Positions 4,133 through 44,519 of a stretch of 64,000 nt of DNA are shown one piece after another (position 1 is the first letter of the stretch; each line of letters opens with the position of its first letter). This DNA is from Ammonifex degensii KC4 (GTDB taxonomy: Bacteria; Bacillota; Desulfotomaculia; Desulfotomaculales; Ammonificaceae). The notes beneath the pieces are model-generated. The model made no database searches. It was not told the DNA's origin and was given only the letters and a program-made list of their open reading frames with translations. The position numbers and the translations under genes were made by a program. Where the stretch lies: positions 434,001-498,000 of the forward strand of contig NC_013385.1 in the NCBI RefSeq assembly GCF_000024605.1. The letters run 5' to 3'.

Positions 4133-5719
4133 TTAAGGATCGGGAGTGGCGTAGATCCGGTAGTCGATATGAGGAAAGATAGGGTGGCGGTACTCCAGCT
4201 CCTCAACAAAGTCTGGCTTAAGGCAGTTTCCGGTGATCTGCCGGTAAAGTTCCAAGAAGTTGTTGAGGTGGGTCTTCACCCGGTAGATGGCGTATTCCAC
4301 CATGGTGCCGGTGGCCATGATGAACGGCCAGTCGCTGGCTTGGGCCAGCAGAAGCTCTCTTGCTGCCTGGTTTAAGGCTCTTCTGAGCCACCCTTCACTT
4401 TCCGGGTAGCGCCGGGCCAGCTCCGTCATGCGGTCGGCGGCCCAGTGTAAGTGCCGGTAGATCCAGTCATTGGCACCGCAAAGCCAGATTTCGTGGTACC
4501 CCTTGTTTCCCCAGCTGGAGGCGCAAGGGGTGGCCACCTGGTTGCAGGGATGGCGCTGAAGGTAATCGGAAGGGGTGACGAGTTCGATTATCTGCTGGTC
4601 GAAAACGATCTTGCGTACCAAGAAGTCAAGCCACTGAGGCCCTTCGAACCACCAGTGCCCGAAAAGCTCGGCGTCGTAAGGGGCCACGATTATGGGTGGG
4701 CGGTCCATGAAGCGGCAGAGGTAGCGGATCTGGTGCTCCCGGTTAAACATGAAGTTGCCGGCGTGTGTATCGGCTTTGGCCGTGGCCCACTCGGGCACGT
4801 AGGGTTCCTTGTGTTCCGTCTTACCGGTTATGCGATAATACTTCAAGCCCGTGGCTACCCTTATCCCGTCGGGATGGATGTAGTCCTTGATGTAGTCGTA
4901 GTCCAGGTCGAACCCTATATCCCGGTAATATTCGCGGTAGTCGAAGTCGCCGGGGTAACCTTCCTTGGCGCTCCAGACCTGCTTAGAGGATTCCACGTCC
5001 CGGCCGAAGGCTGCCACTTCGCTGGGGCAGTAGATGGGGGCAAAAACGCCGAAGCGGGGGCGGTGTGAGGCAAAGAGGACGCCGTGGGTGTCCAGGAAAA
5101 AGTACTTTATACCGTGGGCCTTAAGGTAGGTGTCTATGCCGGGGGAGTAGGCACACTCCGGTAGCCAGAAACCAGAGGGGTTATGACCGAAAATCCGGCG
5201 GTAAAGGTCTACCGCCACGGCGATCTGGGCCTTGGCGGCGGCCGGGTTGACCATGAGTAGGGGAAGGTAGCCGTGGGTGGCTGCGCAGGTTATTATTTCT
5301 AGAATTCCGGCTTCTTTAAAGCGACGAAAGGCCTCGACCAGCTTCCACCGGTAGCTTTCCAGGGTTTGGCGCAGGCGCCCGAAGCGCTCCCGGTACATGG
5401 CCACCACCCGTTCAAAAGGGGTGTTGGCCGTGCGCTCGGTTTCCTTGGCCAAAAGCTCAGAGAGTTTGTCCAGGTGGCGGCGGTACCGCTCCAGCAGGAA
5501 AGGATCGGTGAGCATCGACAGAAGAGTGGGGGAGAGGGAGAGGGTGAGCCTAGCCTTCACCCCGTCCCTAAGAAAACCCTCCAGAACCCAAATGAGGGGA
5601 ACGTAACACTCGGTTATGGCCTCATAAAGCCACCTTTCTTCCAACGACCAGGCATGCTCAGGATGGCGCACGAAGGGGAGGTGGGCGTGCAGTACCAGGG
5701 CCAGGTATCCCTTGGCCAT
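4133..5719 (-). CDS. GH57-family 1,4-alpha-glucan branching enzyme
   Basis: Cytoplasmic enzyme that moves alpha-1,4 chains to alpha-1,6 positions in glycogen. The 528 residues match the Thermus-type GH57 branching enzyme in length and motifs: HAHLPFVRHPE at the N-terminus, FWLPECAYSPGID with the expected nucleophile E188, and APYDAELFGHWWFEG with the acid/base D349. The helical C-terminus (RYPESEGWLRRALNQ onward) fits as well. ATG at 5719 follows directly on the stop of the DUF4912 gene, so the two form an operon. An amylopullulanase-type GH57 is less likely given the length and motifs. Confidence 0.9.
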   Translation of the reverse strand: MAKGYLALVLHAHLPFVRHPEHAWSLEERWLYEAITECYVPLIWVLEGFLRDGVKARLTLSLSPTLLSMLTDPFLLERYRRHLDKLSELLAKETERTANTPFERVVAMYRERFGRLRQTLESYRWKLVEAFRRFKEAGILEIITCAATHGYLPLLMVNPAAAKAQIAVAVDLYRRIFGHNPSGFWLPECAYSPGIDTYLKAHGIKYFFLDTHGVLFASHRPRFGVFAPIYCPSEVAAFGRDVESSKQVWSAKEGYPGDFDYREYYRDIGFDLDYDYIKDYIHPDGIRVATGLKYYRITGKTEHKEPYVPEWATAKADTHAGNFMFNREHQIRYLCRFMDRPPIIVAPYDAELFGHWWFEGPQWLDFLVRKIVFDQQIIELVTPSDYLQRHPCNQVATPCASSWGNKGYHEIWLCGANDWIYRHLHWAADRMTELARRYPESEGWLRRALNQAARELLLAQASDWPFIMATGTMVEYAIYRVKTHLNNFLELYRQITGNCLKPDFVEELEYRHPIFPHIDYRIYATPDP

Positions 5720-32343: not shown

Positions 32344-33615
32344 GTGAGGGAAGCGGAGCTGGAAAAGGTGGTACTGGAGCTGGGTCAGCTGGCGCGCGAG
32401 GAAGGCCTGGACTTTTACCCCATGCGCTTTGAACTCTGTCCTTCCTTCGTGCTGCAGACCCTGGGGGCCTACGGGATGCTTACCCGCTTTTCGCACTGGA
32501 GCTTCGGGAAGGCCTATCAGCGGCTCAAGTGGCGCTACGATTTGGGGCTCAACCGCGTCTACGAAATGGTAATCAACACTAACCCCTGCTACACTTTTCT
32601 TTACGCCGGCAACAGTTTGGTGGAGCACAAGCTGGTGGTGGCACATGCCATGGCCCACAGCGACTTTTTCAAGCACAACCTCCACTTCCGCTCTCTGCCC
32701 GGCGACTGGCACGCGCGCATGAGCTGCCACGCCCGCTGCTTTCGCTCTTACGCCGAAAAATACGGGAGTCACCGCCTGGAGGAGTTGCTGGACGCGGCTT
32801 TAGCCTTGCAGGAGCACGTGGACCCTTATTTAGGGGGTGAAGAGGGAAAAGACCTTTTGCTTTTCTTTATGCGCTACGCGCCCGAGTTGGAGGACTGGGA
32901 GAGGGACGTTCTGAGCATGGTGCGGGAGGAGAGCCTCTACTTCTGGCCGCAGTTCACCACCAAGATACTCAACGAGGGATGGGCTACCTACTGGCACGTG
33001 CGCCTGCTGAGGCAGCTGGAGCTGAACTTTAAGGAAGCGGTGGAGTTTGCCCGCTTGCAGGCGAAACTTTTAAGCCCCAGCTCGGCGGGCATCAACCCTT
33101 ACCTTGTGGGGCTTAGGATACTGGAAGACATCGAGCAGCGCTACGGCAGAGACAAACTTTTCGAGGTGCGGCTGCTCGAGGACGATCTCTCCCTGGTCCG
33201 GAACTACTTAACTCCCAAGCTGGTAAAGGAGCTCGGCCTTTCCCTTTACCGGCTGGAGGGCGAGGCGTGGCGGCCGGTTGGTGGTGAGGCGGAGAAGGTC
33301 AAGGAAGCGCTGATTAAAAAACTTACCCACGGCGGCTTTCCTTATCTGGTAGCCAAAGACGGTAATTACGGGGGAAGGGGAGAGCTTTATCTGGTACACG
33401 TCTTCGACGGCCGTGAGCTCGACGTCTATCATCTAGAGCGCACCCTTCCCCACGTTTACCGCCTCTGGCGCCGGCCAGTACACCTAGAAACGGTACTGGA
33501 AGGCAGGCGGGTGCGCTTTACCTACACTGGCTACCGGGTGGTTCGCCAATCACTGACCCGTAAGGCGGAAGGAGGCGCGACGGGCCAGCCAGCGGGCCAG
33601 GAAGTTAAAGAGTAG
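32344..33615 (+). CDS. SpoVR family protein
   Basis: 423 residues. Signatures of the family: LDFYPMRFELCPSFVLQTLGAYG, FSHWSFGKAYQRLKWRYDLG, INTNPCYTFLYAGNSLVEHKLVVAHAMAHSDFFKHN, and INEGWATYWH-like ILNEGWATYWHVRL with conserved His residues suggestive of metal binding. Bacillus SpoVR is needed for spore cortex formation. The usual partners (PrkA kinase, YeaH) are absent here. The start is GTG at 32344. Its last 66 bases overlap the end of convergent pstA, so the C-terminal 22 residues share DNA with pstA. Confidence 0.9.
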   Translation: MREAELEKVVLELGQLAREEGLDFYPMRFELCPSFVLQTLGAYGMLTRFSHWSFGKAYQRLKWRYDLGLNRVYEMVINTNPCYTFLYAGNSLVEHKLVVAHAMAHSDFFKHNLHFRSLPGDWHARMSCHARCFRSYAEKYGSHRLEELLDAALALQEHVDPYLGGEEGKDLLLFFMRYAPELEDWERDVLSMVREESLYFWPQFTTKILNEGWATYWHVRLLRQLELNFKEAVEFARLQAKLLSPSSAGINPYLVGLRILEDIEQRYGRDKLFEVRLLEDDLSLVRNYLTPKLVKELGLSLYRLEGEAWRPVGGEAEKVKEALIKKLTHGGFPYLVAKDGNYGGRGELYLVHVFDGRELDVYHLERTLPHVYRLWRRPVHLETVLEGRRVRFTYTGYRVVRQSLTRKAEGGATGQPAGQEVKE

Positions 33616-34434
33616 CACGATGATCACCAGCACGGCGGAGGAGCCGTCAGCCACCCGCCGGACATCAGGGATAATTGCTTCGGAATTTACCTTCCAGATG
33701 TGCACGGCCAGCGTCTCCCCCGGGCGCAGCGGGTTCCAAGGACAGGTAGGACTGGTGATATCCCACTGGCTGAAGTTTAGCCTGGGGGTGGTAAGACCAG
33801 CGGTGAAGATGAGAGCAGCTGCTTCTCCCAGTATGCGCCCGGAGGCCAGAATGATACCGGTCAGCAGCCCCGGTAAAGCGGTGGGCAGGACCACCTTATA
33901 GATGGTCTGCCATTTGGTGGCTCCTAGGCTCAGGCTGGCCTCCCTCAGATCCTGGGGCACGGTGCGCAAGGCCTCCTCTGTTATCCTCACCATCAGAGGA
34001 AGATTGATGATGGTGAGGGCCAGAGCGCCGGCCAGGAGAGAGTAGCCCAGGCCCAGCGCGGTGACGAAAAGCAAGAGGCCGAAAAGCCCCACCACGATGG
34101 AGGGCAGAGAGGCCAGGGTTTCGATGCTCAGCCGGATGGAGCGGGTAAGGGCATTTTCCTTAGCGTACTCCGAGAGGTATATCCCTGCCAGAACGCCTAG
34201 AGGAACTACTATAATAAGGGACAGGAAGAGCAGATAGAAGGAGTTGAAAATGTTGGGGCCTATTCCGCCGCCGGCTTTTATAGTCTCCGGCTCGCTGGTG
34301 AGGAACTTCCAGTCGATGACCTTAAAACCGTGAAACATGATGTAGCCTAGAAGAAAAGCCAGGACGGCTACTACCACTCCGGCGGCCAGCCAGAAGGCTA
34401 AAGTAGCTAGCCGATCTTTAAAATGGGCAGTCAT
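33550..34434 (-). CDS. pstA: Phosphate ABC transporter permease PstA
   Basis: One of two inner-membrane channel subunits for high-affinity phosphate uptake. 294 residues, about six membrane helices, first helix FWLAAGVVVAVLAFLLGYI. The ABC-interaction loop EEALRTVPQDLREASLSLGATKWQTI is conserved. ATG at 34434 overlaps pstC by 4 bases (ATGA). The ATPase gene pstB, which normally follows, is not here: the next DNA is spoVR on the opposite strand. The operon therefore ends with pstA, or pstB has moved. Confidence 0.93.
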   Translation of the reverse strand: MTAHFKDRLATLAFWLAAGVVVAVLAFLLGYIMFHGFKVIDWKFLTSEPETIKAGGGIGPNIFNSFYLLFLSLIIVVPLGVLAGIYLSEYAKENALTRSIRLSIETLASLPSIVVGLFGLLLFVTALGLGYSLLAGALALTIINLPLMVRITEEALRTVPQDLREASLSLGATKWQTIYKVVLPTALPGLLTGIILASGRILGEAAALIFTAGLTTPRLNFSQWDITSPTCPWNPLRPGETLAVHIWKVNSEAIIPDVRRVADGSSAVLVIIVLLFNFLARWLARRASFRLTGQ

Positions 34435-35336
34435 TTAGCTACCCCCCACTTGCCCACATAGCGCACAAGGATGATGAAGAAGAACGAAGTTATGAGCAGG
34501 ATAAGTCCCATGAACCACAGGGCATCGTTCCACAGGGAACCCTGCACTGTGTTCCCCATGTACATGGTGATACCGCTGGTAAGGGTAATGATGGGAATTA
34601 GGAGTGAAGTAGGGGAGTTGGGAATGTTCCCTATAACCATTTGCACCGCCAGAGCTTCGCCGAAGGCCCGGGCCAGGGCGAGTACCACGCCGGTAAGAAT
34701 GCCGGTACGAGCGGCTGGCAACAGCACCAGCCTGATCATCTGCCAACGGGTGGCTCCTAGGGCGTAGGCCGTCTCCCGCAGGATGTGAGAAAGGGAGCGC
34801 AGGGAGTCAGTGGCCACACTGGCTATGGTAGGCAGGATCATTACTGAGAGAACCAGCACGCCGGCCAGCAGGCTGAAACCGGTGCCCCCCAGGTGGTTGC
34901 GGATGAAGGGAACGAGCACACTCAAGCCTATGTAGCCGTAGACTACCGAAGGTATACCGGCCAGGAGCTCTATAACCGGCTGCAGCACCCGTTGCCCCAC
35001 CTTAGGAGCGATTTCGGAGATAAAGACGGCAACGGCGATACCGAAGGGAGTCGAGATGAGGGTGGCTAAGGTGGAAACGACTATGGAGCCGTAGAGGAAG
35101 TTGAGGATGCCAACCTGCGGGCCGCCCTCTGCTGCTGGGCGCTCTGGGTGCCAGGCGGTGCTGAAGACGTTGCTCAGGGGTACCTTGTGGACGAAGAAGA
35201 GGGATAGCCCCTTCCAGGTTAAAAAGGCTATGATGGCAACGGTGGCCAGTACGGTAAGGACCGCAGCAGGTGCGGTAAGCCCGTACCCCCAAATTTCCCG
35301 TCTTAAACTGGAGCGCAGCCTACCTATCGCCCACAA
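34431..35336 (-). CDS. pstC: Phosphate ABC transporter permease PstC
   Basis: Partner permease to PstA. 301 residues with about six membrane helices, the PstC-specific FNVFSTAWHPE-like periplasmic loop (VFSTAWHPERPAAEGG), and the loop DSLRSLSHILRETAYALGATRWQMIRLVLLP. Lies 95 bases after pstS, separated by a hairpin that should cut read-through so the binding protein is made in excess. The first codon is ATG or close to it (35336); alternatives a few codons downstream cannot be excluded. Confidence 0.93.
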   Translation of the reverse strand: MWAIGRLRSSLRREIWGYGLTAPAAVLTVLATVAIIAFLTWKGLSLFFVHKVPLSNVFSTAWHPERPAAEGGPQVGILNFLYGSIVVSTLATLISTPFGIAVAVFISEIAPKVGQRVLQPVIELLAGIPSVVYGYIGLSVLVPFIRNHLGGTGFSLLAGVLVLSVMILPTIASVATDSLRSLSHILRETAYALGATRWQMIRLVLLPAARTGILTGVVLALARAFGEALAVQMVIGNIPNSPTSLLIPIITLTSGITMYMGNTVQGSLWNDALWFMGLILLITSFFFIILVRYVGKWGVAK

Positions 35337-35431: not shown

Positions 35432-36304
35432 TTAGGGCTTGTACTCCACCTTCATGGAGGTGATGGGGAAGTAGTGCATCTCCTTCACCGGACCCTGCTG
35501 GAACTCGTTGCTCAAGATGTAGTCGATGAAGGCCTTGACCACCGGCTTGGGCTCCCCCTTGGTGTAGAGGTGCCCGTAGGACCAGAAGGGGTACTTGCCC
35601 TCGGAAATGTCTTCCTCGGTGGGGGCGGCGCCGTCGATCTTCAGCGCCTTAACCTTATTATCCAGGTATCCTACGCCCAGGTAACTTATAGCTCCAGGGG
35701 TCTCACTCACCATCTTGTGGATGGTACCGCTGGAATCCGATTCGGCTACACCCTTAATCGGTTCCTTCCCATCCATCACACGCTTGATGAAGGTAGCCCT
35801 GGTTCCCGAACCCTGAGGCCGATTGATAACCGCTATTTTGAGGTCCGGGCCGCCAACTTCTTTCCAGTTGGTGATCTTCCCGGTGAAGATATCTTGAATC
35901 TGCTTCTTGGTGAGGTTGTCCACCCCCTTAACGTCGGGGTTGACCACGAGGGCAAAGGCCTGCACGCAGATCTTGTGGTCTTTGAGGGCTGAAGCGTCAA
36001 TGCCCGACTTTTCCTCCGCGAAGATGTCGGAAGCTCCTATATCGCAGGCTCCCTGGCTTACTTGGCTTAAGCCCGTGCCGCTGCCGCCGCCCTGGACGGT
36101 GATTTGCACGCCGGGATTTTTAGCCATGAAGCGCTTGGCGGCCTCTTCTATCAGCGGTTGCAACGCGGTGGATCCGACCACCGTTATGGCTCCCTTAAGC
36201 TCTGCTGGTGCTGTGCCTGCTCCCGGTTCTTTATTGCCCACGCACCCAGCTACGCTAGCCAGCAAAAGACACACAATTGCCGCTACCGCCCACCATTTTC
36301 TCAT
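35432..36304 (-). CDS. pstS: Phosphate-binding lipoprotein PstS
   Basis: The extracytoplasmic phosphate receptor. 290 residues from ATG at 36304 (AAGGAGGGG upstream). Signal peptide WWAVAAIVCLLLASVAGC with lipobox VAGC, so it is lipid-anchored. Binding motifs: TVVGSTALQPLIEEAAKRF, QGGGSGTGLSQVSQG, GASDIFAEE, and RPQGSGTRATF. The promoter region has four 11-base-spaced Pho repeats. First gene of the pst operon. Confidence 0.95.
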   Translation of the reverse strand: MRKWWAVAAIVCLLLASVAGCVGNKEPGAGTAPAELKGAITVVGSTALQPLIEEAAKRFMAKNPGVQITVQGGGSGTGLSQVSQGACDIGASDIFAEEKSGIDASALKDHKICVQAFALVVNPDVKGVDNLTKKQIQDIFTGKITNWKEVGGPDLKIAVINRPQGSGTRATFIKRVMDGKEPIKGVAESDSSGTIHKMVSETPGAISYLGVGYLDNKVKALKIDGAAPTEEDISEGKYPFWSYGHLYTKGEPKPVVKAFIDYILSNEFQQGPVKEMHYFPITSMKVEYKP

Positions 36305-36416
36305 GGACAATGATTCCCCTCCTTAGCCGATTTTTCGAGCTACCTTTTCGCGAGAAAAACCTTCCTCTCTTCTTCCTTCCCTCCCCCTGCCATGTTTTGT
36401 TTTCTGCTTCACGGGT

Positions 36417-36422
36417 ATTGTA
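36417..36422 (-). promoter_or_regulatory. -10 box of the pstS promoter
   Basis: On the minus strand TACAAT lies 9 bases downstream of the last Pho repeat (TTAACA). There is no good -35 box, as expected where PhoP must recruit polymerase. Confidence 0.55.
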
Positions 36423-36431
36423 CTATGGATG

Positions 36432-36471
36432 TGTTAAGCCCAAGTTAAATTGCCGTTAGTTCAAGGTTAAC
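36432..36471 (-). promoter_or_regulatory. Pho box: four direct repeats at 11-bp spacing
   Basis: The plus strand holds GTTAA starting at 36433, 36444 and 36466, and GTTAG at 36455. On the pstS strand this reads TTAACC, CTAACG, TTAACT, TTAACA with 5-base gaps. This matches the Bacillus PhoP consensus TT(A/C/T)A(C/T)A repeated every 11 bases, and it sits directly above the pstS -10. The two-component system PhoP-PhoR itself is not in the window. Confidence 0.8.
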
Positions 36472-36564
36472 CAGGAAGAGCGGACTTGAGTGCTCAAGTT
36501 TCTCTTTTCCCTTCCCGATTAAAAGGCAAAAAAGCCGAAGAACACGGCGGAGGTCGGGACCGAG

Positions 36565-37719
36565 TTGAAACAAAACGAGCAACTGACCTCATTTCTTAAG
36601 CGTGTACCCCTTTTGAACGTCTTGAGCAACGCTTCTTTATCGACCCTGACCCGGCAGGTCAAGGTGGTGGCCGTAAAAAAAGGGGAAAACCTGCCGGTGG
36701 AAGAAGGAATTGTCGTCCTGCAGGGAAGGGTCATGGTTACCGGCCGGGGCAAGACCGGGGTAGGTGGCCCCGGCACGACTTTGGGGGTTTTAAGCCTTCT
36801 AGGAGTAGAAGAGAATGTTACCGCTCGTGCCTTGGAGGAGGCAATAGTACTGATTATAGGAAAGGATAATTTCCGGGCCTTGCTTCTTTCTCGTCCCGAG
36901 GAAGGGGTAAGCCTGGCCTGTCATCTGGCTGGAGAACTTCAGCGTCAGGGGGTATCCTTTGACCGGATAGTACCCCCACCGGTGGAAGAGAAGGAAGAGG
37001 CTTCCCCGGAGGTTTCGCCGGAAGCTACGTCCGGGAAAGAGGAGCCTTTTTACCACAAGAATTTTACCTGCCCCTTCTGCCGGAGCACTTTCACTTCGGT
37101 GGTTTTGAAGTCCCGCTTTCTGCGGGTGGAAAGGATGGACACCGACTTTTGCCCCCATTATGCCGGGGAACTGAACCCCCTCTTTTACGAAGCGGTGGTC
37201 TGCCCTTACTGCGGCTTTGCTTTTACCGAGGAGGTGGTGGAAGTGCCGGCCCGCTTCCGCCCCCAGGTGGAAAACTGCTTAAAAGGTTTAGGGGACGAGG
37301 AAAAAGATTTTTGGAGGAGGCGCGACTGGGATACGGCCCTAGCTGCCTTTTTGCGCGTAGCCTCTTGCGCTGCGGCGGCTGGAGTAAGAAAGAGCTTGCT
37401 GGGGAAGATCTACCTCAAGATAGCCTGGCTTTACCGCCTGGCTGACAGAAAAGAGGAAAAGGAATACCTGGAAAAGGCGAGGAATTATTTAAAAGCGGCT
37501 TTCGAGGAGGAGCGTCTGGGCGGGCCAGAGGCGGAGCTTAACCTGCTTTATCTCCTGGGGGAGCTGAGCTTTCGCCTGGGAGATCGGGCGGAGGCGGCCC
37601 GGTGGTGGAGCCTGGTCCTTCACCACCCCCAGAAGGAAGCCCAGCCCCGCATCCTGCAGCGCACGCGGGAGCGGTGGTACGAGCTGCGACGAGAGGGGGA
37701 GCGGGAGATTGGCGGATAA
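36565..37719 (+). CDS. DUF2225 protein with N-terminal cyclic-nucleotide-binding-like domain
   Basis: 384 residues. Residues about 8-130 resemble a cNMP-binding/Crp-type beta-roll (FLKRVPLLNVLSNASL, then VLQGRVMVTGRG), though with no obvious phosphate-binding cassette. A linker follows, then DUF2225 (residues about 155-380) with CPFCRSTF and CPYCGFAF zinc pairs and a TPR-like helical tail. DUF2225 proteins occur in clostridia and spirochaetes, of unknown function. The start is TTG at 36565. It overlaps the HD-GYP gene by 11 bases, which suggests a signalling unit. Confidence 0.75.
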   Translation: MKQNEQLTSFLKRVPLLNVLSNASLSTLTRQVKVVAVKKGENLPVEEGIVVLQGRVMVTGRGKTGVGGPGTTLGVLSLLGVEENVTARALEEAIVLIIGKDNFRALLLSRPEEGVSLACHLAGELQRQGVSFDRIVPPPVEEKEEASPEVSPEATSGKEEPFYHKNFTCPFCRSTFTSVVLKSRFLRVERMDTDFCPHYAGELNPLFYEAVVCPYCGFAFTEEVVEVPARFRPQVENCLKGLGDEEKDFWRRRDWDTALAAFLRVASCAAAAGVRKSLLGKIYLKIAWLYRLADRKEEKEYLEKARNYLKAAFEEERLGGPEAELNLLYLLGELSFRLGDRAEAARWWSLVLHHPQKEAQPRILQRTRERWYELRREGEREIGG

Positions 37720-42847: not shown

Positions 42848-43100
42848 TTGGGCCGGGGGCTGCTCGATCTCCTTTTCCCGCCCAAAGGGTGTCTCCTTTG
42901 CGGGAATCGGGAAAAAGAAGGGGCTGTTTGCCACGACTGCCTGTCTTTTTTGGAAACCGCCCGTACCCTTTCCTTTTGCCCCGTCTGTGGGCGCTTTGGG
43001 GAGGGAGGGATTTGCCTTGACTGCCGGATTTACTCCCGCCCTTTTACCCTTTGCCGGGCGGTGGGTCCTTACGAGGGTGCTTTGAAGCAGGCCATTCACC
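42848..43100 (+). pseudogene. comF: comF 5' fragment, broken by TnpB element
   Basis: The N-terminal 84 codons of a ComF-type phosphoribosyltransferase-like competence protein: LLDLLFPPKGCLLCGNREKEG, then CHDCLSF and CPVCGRFGEGGICLDC zinc pairs, ending GPYEGALKQAIH at the element. The frame continues 10 codons into the element before stopping. About 110 codons, including most of the PRPP-binding domain, are missing compared with the usual ~230 residues. The 3' end survives at 44520-44618. Confidence 0.88.
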
Positions 43101-44519
43101 AAAAACTAGCCGCTGGAGGCCCCGGCTTTTAAGCCTGGGGAGGAAAGCGGCCCCAGACTGTGCTACAATGGAAGCATGAAGCACACCAACGTCGTCCGGG
43201 TTCTTCCAGATAAACAGCAGAAGCAGATCCTGGAAATCATCGGGGACCGCTGCGCCGCCCTCTACAACGCCGTCCAGTACAGGTGCAGGCAGGCGTTCTT
43301 CAGGGGTGAACCCGTGCCTTCCTACGCCGCCTTATGCTCCGAGTTCGAGGAGCACCCGGCATATAAAGCCCTGCCGTCAGACATAGGGCAGGAGGTCATC
43401 AAGAAAGCGAGGAAGGCGTGGGACTCCTACTTCGCCTGCCTGAGACTGTACCGTAAGGGCGACATACCAAGGCCGCCGCGCGTGCCCGGGTACTGGAAAG
43501 ACCGCCGCACAGGGAAGCGCCTGGTCAGGCTGATCCCGGTTAAGTCCCCGCGGTCCTACTCCCTGGACGCCAGGACGGTCTCCCTGACTTTACCCACAGA
43601 CCTGCGGGAAAAGCGTGGAGATCGCCTGGTCCTGCGCACAAAGGGTCTCTTACGCTTCCACGGCCGGCCTAAGACCCTGGAGCTCAAGTACGACCCTGTG
43701 AGGAAGCGCTGGTACGCCCACCAGGTGGTGGAGGTGCCGGAGCCGGTAAGAAAAGTCCGGCCCGAAAAACACGCCGCCATCGACCTGGGCGCGAGGGTCC
43801 TGGTCGCCTTGGCCATAGAGGGACTCGGCCGCCAGCTCCTCTTCTCCGCCCGGGAAGTCATCAAGGACTTCCTCTACTGGACCAACCAGATTGCGAAGGA
43901 ACAGTCGAGGCTCAACCGGGCGGGAAGGAAGACCTCCAGGAAGCTGAGGAGGCTTTATCAGCTCCGCGCCCGCAGGCTCAGGCACGCCTTTGTCGCTTTG
44001 GCCGCGGAAGTTGCCCGCATTCTCAAGCGGCACCGGGTGACCACGCTGTTTCTTGAGGACCTGACGGGCATCCGGGAGGACACGGACTTCGGGCCGAAAA
44101 ACGTCCTGGTGCACAACTTCTGGGCCTTCAGGATGTTGAGGAACCTCATCGAGGCCGCCTGTGCCCGGGCCGGGATAAAAGTTGTTCCCATGGAGCCGCG
44201 CGGTACCTCTTCCCGGTGCGCCGTCTGTGGGCATCCCGTCAGGCGGCCTGTGCGGCACAAAGCGGTGTGTGAGAAGTGCGGCCGCGTGTGGCACGCGGAC
44301 GCCAACGCGGCGTTAAACATACTCCTCCAGGGCTCCTCGAAGGAGCACGGGGCGGAGGCCACGCCCCAGAAGCCGCTCGCCTACCGGTGGGACAGGCACC
44401 GGTGGGTGAGCCGCTTCAAACCTGCCGCCGGTACGCTTAAAGCGGCGAGCGGCAGCCGGACGGCGGCTTAAAGCCGCCTGAAGGAATCCCCGGGCTTTAG
44501 CCCTAGGGAGGGAGTCAAC
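43101..44519 (+). mobile_element. IS605-type element with TnpB only, copy 2 (1419 bp)
   Basis: Same length and ends as copy 1 (AAAAACTAGCC at the left, GGGAGGGAGTCAAC at the right), with the same subterminal hairpins. The left flank is TCACC, against TCACT for copy 1. It lies inside comF and is associated with loss of about 330 bp of that gene, so insertion was followed or accompanied by a deletion beside one end. Confidence 0.9.
43176..44471 (+). CDS. tnpB: TnpB RNA-guided nuclease (IS605 OrfB), copy 2
   Basis: 431 residues, nearly identical to the copy at 25744-27039, differing in scattered residues such as FFRGEP for FFGGEP. The RuvC residues D203, E294 and D375 and the zinc-finger CxxC pairs are all retained. 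TACAAT (43164-43169) stands 6 bases before ATG, suggesting a leaderless message. The right-end hairpins that would form its guide RNA scaffold follow at 44462-44519. Both copies look functional, and similarity indicates recent spread. Confidence 0.92.
   Translation: MKHTNVVRVLPDKQQKQILEIIGDRCAALYNAVQYRCRQAFFRGEPVPSYAALCSEFEEHPAYKALPSDIGQEVIKKARKAWDSYFACLRLYRKGDIPRPPRVPGYWKDRRTGKRLVRLIPVKSPRSYSLDARTVSLTLPTDLREKRGDRLVLRTKGLLRFHGRPKTLELKYDPVRKRWYAHQVVEVPEPVRKVRPEKHAAIDLGARVLVALAIEGLGRQLLFSAREVIKDFLYWTNQIAKEQSRLNRAGRKTSRKLRRLYQLRARRLRHAFVALAAEVARILKRHRVTTLFLEDLTGIREDTDFGPKNVLVHNFWAFRMLRNLIEAACARAGIKVVPMEPRGTSSRCAVCGHPVRRPVRHKAVCEKCGRVWHADANAALNILLQGSSKEHGAEATPQKPLAYRWDRHRWVSRFKPAAGTLKAASGSRTAA

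Follow-up and report, generated by a model that had tools for sequence, protein, structure and literature searches.

The PhoP sites (Pho boxes) of Bacillus subtilis consist of TTAACA-like repeats. The orthologous family in Escherichia coli binds the PhoB box, made of 11-bp direct repeats with CTGTCAT-type cores, and the unit of the PHO box of Streptomyces coelicolor is of the GTTCACC type, differing from the TTAAC seen in Ammonifex. The hallmark of activation by PhoP or PhoB is an array on a single helix face, placed just ahead of a -10 hexamer in a promoter with no -35 hexamer. Phosphate-dependent transcription of pst genes in Clostridium acetobutylicum was reportedly described by Fischer in 2006, a study cited in PMC13170248. 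According to an excerpt of PMC5253667 that cites Eder 1999, the centres of the B. subtilis sites fall between -17 and -66. The portion of PMC7866108 consulted gives 18 nt for the E. coli PhoB box and describes the PHO boxes of S. coelicolor, located upstream of pstS, as direct repeats of 11-nt units, with at most four core units.

We analysed a stretch of 64,000 nucleotides from Ammonifex degensii KC4, called the window below. The first-pass annotation had claimed four cores above pstS, and they are indeed present on the plus strand as GTTAA at 36433, GTTAA at 36444, GTTAG at 36455 and GTTAA at 36466, with a spacing of exactly 11 bp. It had left the strand unstated; both the box and pstS lie on the minus strand, consistent with its coordinates. 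Read along this coding strand of pstS, the array is TTAACcttgaaCTAACggcaatTTAACttgggcTTAAC, then acatccatag, then TACAAT (36422 down to 36417), that is TTAAC-N6-CTAAC-N6-TTAAC-N6-TTAAC, 10 nt, TACAAT. The predicted Pho box (36433..36470, minus strand) thus has the at least four TTAAC-like direct repeats with an 11 bp period found in Bacillus-type Pho boxes, and on the coding strand its repeats immediately precede a -10. The TACAAT hexamer, also proposed in the first-pass annotation, was located at 36417..36422 on the minus strand, downstream of the array.

We consider it very probable, judging from the sequence, that this array is a Bacillus-type Pho box at which phosphorylated PhoP activates pstSCA under phosphate limitation. 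The Pho control predicted by the first-pass annotation is supported by the pstSCA genes downstream, the phoP/phoR/pstB/phoU cluster, the orientation of the repeats, the promoter geometry and the conservation. The array, its uniqueness, its geometry, the genes and the conservation were observed directly; binding by PhoP, activation and low phosphate as the signal are what we infer.

The array stands upstream of phosphate-acquisition genes, all on the minus strand: pstS (35432..36310), encoding a phosphate-binding lipoprotein (TIGR02136, 285.8 bits versus a cut-off of 206.6), the permease gene pstC (34431..35336; TIGR02138, 274.5 bits versus 196.45) and a further permease gene, pstA (33550..34434; TIGR00974, 296 bits versus 193.45), which is the last gene of the operon. 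Translation of pstS could start at TTG 36310 or ATG 36304, each preceded by GGAGGGG. Neither pstB nor phoU was found in the pstSCA operon. On the other side of the array a divergent gene (36565-37719; cNMP-like and DUF2225) starts 95 bp away. The end of pstA is overlapped tail to tail, by 66 bp (33550-33615), by a SpoVR-like gene on the plus strand (32344-33615), and the same overlap is present in Ammonifex thiophilus (L084:6689-6754).

The window also carries traces of mobile elements. A transposase gene with an integrase core (PF13683; 39217-40380) lies between an HD-GYP gene and the next ORF, two genes which in A. thiophilus are adjacent, with no transposase. Another transposase gene, of the TnpB/OrfB type (43176-44471), stands directly behind a short ORF (42848-43132) which we take to resemble the start of comF; this comF-like ORF may be interrupted.

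The promoter of pstS appears to be of the activator-dependent type, lacking a good -35. TACAAT was the sole plausible -10 spotted beside the array, the hexamer 17 nt upstream of it, at the -35 spacing, is ACTTGG, and a search for sigma-70 type -35/-10 pairs gave none on either strand within 36250-36700. Since the promoter has a -10 and no -35, transcription of pstSCA would be PhoP-dependent. We infer a transcription start at about 36410, which would put the cores at about -60 to -23. Rfam gave no matches over the window, so a known leader RNA does not account for the leader of ~100 nt. Upstream of the box, between it and the divergent gene, we noticed a perfect inverted repeat, ACTTGAG-TG-CTCAAGT (36484-36499; one exact copy in the window). 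As a candidate second operator it was rejected, being absent in A. thiophilus.

The remaining Pho genes are found elsewhere on the chromosome, in the order laccase-like gene, phoP, phoR, pstB, phoU and two genes that we presume to be yggS-like and proC-like; the PhoR kinase gene is near 1,028 kb. PstB and PhoU of this cluster score above their cut-offs. The best match of the cluster PhoP is PhoB (262.5 bits, below the cut-off of 296.2) and that of the PhoR kinase is PnpS (398, below the cut-off of 400); because both score under the cut-off, the genome's PhoP and PhoR owe their names to best match and neighbourhood. Ahead of the laccase-like gene, with which the phoPR-pstB-phoU operon begins, there are two TTAAC cores 11 bp apart (L012:4438-4459; G000:C1 near 1,026,440), with TATAAT 11 nt downstream, a distance of ~21 nt in A. 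thiophilus. This two-core element is possibly a weak autoregulatory site. In neither Ammonifex species is phoP preceded by a three-core chain (L164, L165).

A genome scan, which the first-pass annotation had suggested as a check, found only one four-core array, at pstS. Over 2,157,067 bases the GTTAR form gave one exact match and the TTAAC form one match at three or fewer mismatches, with none for the reversed control in either case. Three-core matches near 1,612,682, 1,636,136 and 1,957,221 were rejected as Pho sites, as the control also gives two such matches at two mismatches; none of the three sites has a four-core array at three or fewer mismatches, and they were left uncounted. The match at 1,636,136, nearly identical on both strands, is located just downstream of an ORF that presumably resembles lysS.

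The nearest named record was A. thiophilus strain SR, with PstS at 93%. Its cores 3 and 4 (the proximal ones) and TACAAT are identical to those of our genome and all distances are kept, while cores 1 and 2 both read TTAAT, differing by C/T changes. The pair of pstS and the divergent gene is kept as well.

The array is also conserved at pstS of more distant relatives. PstS was found in 109 of the 113 genomes of the order, and 30 pstS loci from that search, the window's own included, made up the order set (460 nt of upstream sequence each; 203 nt for L043). In 20 of the 30 upstream regions the best four-core array was reached by none of 200 shuffles; the other ten, which did not pass, were reached by one shuffle (1 locus), three (1 locus) or at least 14 (8 loci). 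The named set comprised 80 loci, 79 of which were scored (L129 was too short). In 51 of these, among them loci of Desulfofundulus, Desulfovirgula, Heyndrickxia, Listeria, Enterococcus and Brevibacillus, no more than one of 100 shuffles attained the array; the other 28 did not pass. The two sets are not independent: they share genomes and hold several identical contigs (e.g. L084 = L017). At two loci, L035 (G094:C1) and L038 (G090:C233), pstS has no array of its own and immediately follows a second gene for a PhoP-like regulator; given this position, the promoter of pstS may be elsewhere.

Phasing and promoter distance are conserved along with the cores. TTAAC pairs 5-50 nt apart fall at 11, 22, 33 or 44 bp in 54 of 59 cases in the order, and at multiples of 11 in 39 of 56 cases in the named loci. 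We defined a chain as at least three cores with 4/5 letters each, one skipped period being permitted; 23 of the 30 order loci and 55 of the 79 named loci qualified. The offset from the last core to the start of a TAnnnT hexamer is exactly 10 nt in 20 of the 23 order chains (next commonest offset, n=2) and in 41 of the 55 named ones (next commonest, n=7). This offset is not a consequence of the 11 bp repeat, in which a further core would be expected at 6. The array, the phasing and the 10 nt distance are likewise present upstream of pstS in Bacilli, where the cores are frequently TTTAC.

Arrays were seen near phoP and in larger numbers in some relatives. In three genomes a four-core array follows phoP, ~1.3 kb beyond the end of the gene, with a -10 at 10 nt in G003 and G004, both of the same family as our genome, and with no -10 match in G005; in G004 it is followed by pstS, at 4243 on the same contig. 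Among 30 stretches examined at phoP, 24 gave no three-core chain; the chains were in L166, L167, L169, L171, L193 and L189, in the last on the opposite strand only. Over the 113 genomes, three-core matches at one or no mismatch numbered 412 versus 76 for the control, and 318 versus 76 when G080-G083 were left out. G080, G081 and G083, of one genus of the order, each hold between 23 and 34 three-core matches, whereas the control gives 0; many of the matches form chains of 4-7 cores, and the Pho regulon of these genomes is apparently much enlarged. The genes behind these arrays include those for a pst-type permease, a PHA synthase subunit (PF09712), an S-layer-domain protein and a PHP-domain-like protein, the PHP match being slightly below cut-off.

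Could the array have another explanation? That the repeats are a functionless chance pattern has a negligible probability. AT-rich DNA yields TTAA-rich stretches by chance, yet the window has ~59% G+C; it contains one four-core match at three or fewer mismatches versus none in each of 100 dinucleotide shuffles, and about 2e-5 such arrays would be expected per genome at one or no mismatch, as estimated from the base composition of the window. The conserved phasing and the conserved distance to the -10 refute a chance origin in any case. It is unlikely that the box controls the divergent gene too, or controls it in place of pstS. That gene starts a mere 95 bp away from the array, and A. thiophilus has the same gene pair, but the repeats and the -10 are oriented toward pstS, it is on the pstS side that the 10 nt distance is conserved, and no sigma-70 type promoter toward the divergent gene was found in 36250-36700.

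A further alternative is binding of the array by an OmpR-family regulator other than PhoP, e.g. a WalR-like one. Members of the family typically bind direct repeats ~11 bp apart; a WalR-like site has two TGT-A-type repeats 11 bp apart. HP1043 is an example of such binding to ~11 bp repeats mentioned in the consulted part of PMC5253667. Four OmpR/PhoB-type proteins were found in the genome, PhoP included, which leaves three further candidates. Against them, the array precedes pstS in many genomes, and in a same-family genome it lies downstream of phoP, beside pst genes. Also, the cluster PhoP is 46% identical to E. coli PhoB, versus 41-42% for the other three, and it alone among the four has RTVDVH-x-R in the recognition stretch as in PhoB, parts of which the others lack. 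We thus regard a different regulator of this family as very improbable.

With PhoP as the regulator, control of pstSCA would probably proceed as follows. Under phosphate scarcity the PhoR kinase would phosphorylate PhoP, dimers of which would bind head-to-tail on the four TTAAC repeats, along one helix face, and cover positions of about -60 to -23 of the pstS strand. Positioned beside the -10, PhoP would substitute for the -35 contact and recruit RNA polymerase, and PstB and PhoU supplied by the phoPR cluster would complete the transporter and its off-switch. One could further speculate that the strongly boxed Pho regulon of Ammonifex is a single promoter, that of pstSCA, with pstB and phoU in the phoPR operon behind a two-core half box, and that starvation shifts the PstSCA : PstB/PhoU ratio and hence signalling, rather than raising the whole complex; we hold this to be possible and rather doubtful.

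The site is of a well-known, widely conserved kind and leaves the picture of Pho control unchanged. What it offers is a firm, directly testable regulatory prediction for a thermophilic anaerobe. This Bacillota order and Bacilli have in common the box, its 11 bp phasing and a constant spacing of 10 nt before the -10, so this mode of activation is probably old. Searches of the open-licence literature, which leaves subscription journals mostly uncovered, yielded no study of the Pho regulon of this lineage; this is weak evidence for the first-pass annotation's description of the group as little studied.

Among known systems, transcription of the pst operon is reportedly phosphate-dependent in the clostridium C. 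acetobutylicum, a distant relative. The recognition stretch of E. coli PhoB is largely kept in the Ammonifex PhoP; the Ammonifex box, with four TTAAC cores, is unlike the E. coli PhoB box, for which the portion of PMC7866108 consulted gives 18 nt. With the PHO boxes of S. coelicolor, as described in the same portion (PMC7866108), Ammonifex shares direct repeat units of 11 nt in front of pstS. In contrast to B. subtilis, the Ammonifex operon is pstSCA alone, pstB and phoU are in the phoPR cluster and the genome has a single strong site. Like the PhoP sites of B. subtilis, however, the array consists of TTAAC-type 11 bp direct repeats that closely precede a -10 on the coding strand, and its cores, at about -23 to -60 with the start placed at 36410, compare with centres between -17 and -66 in B. 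subtilis, as given in the excerpt of PMC5253667.
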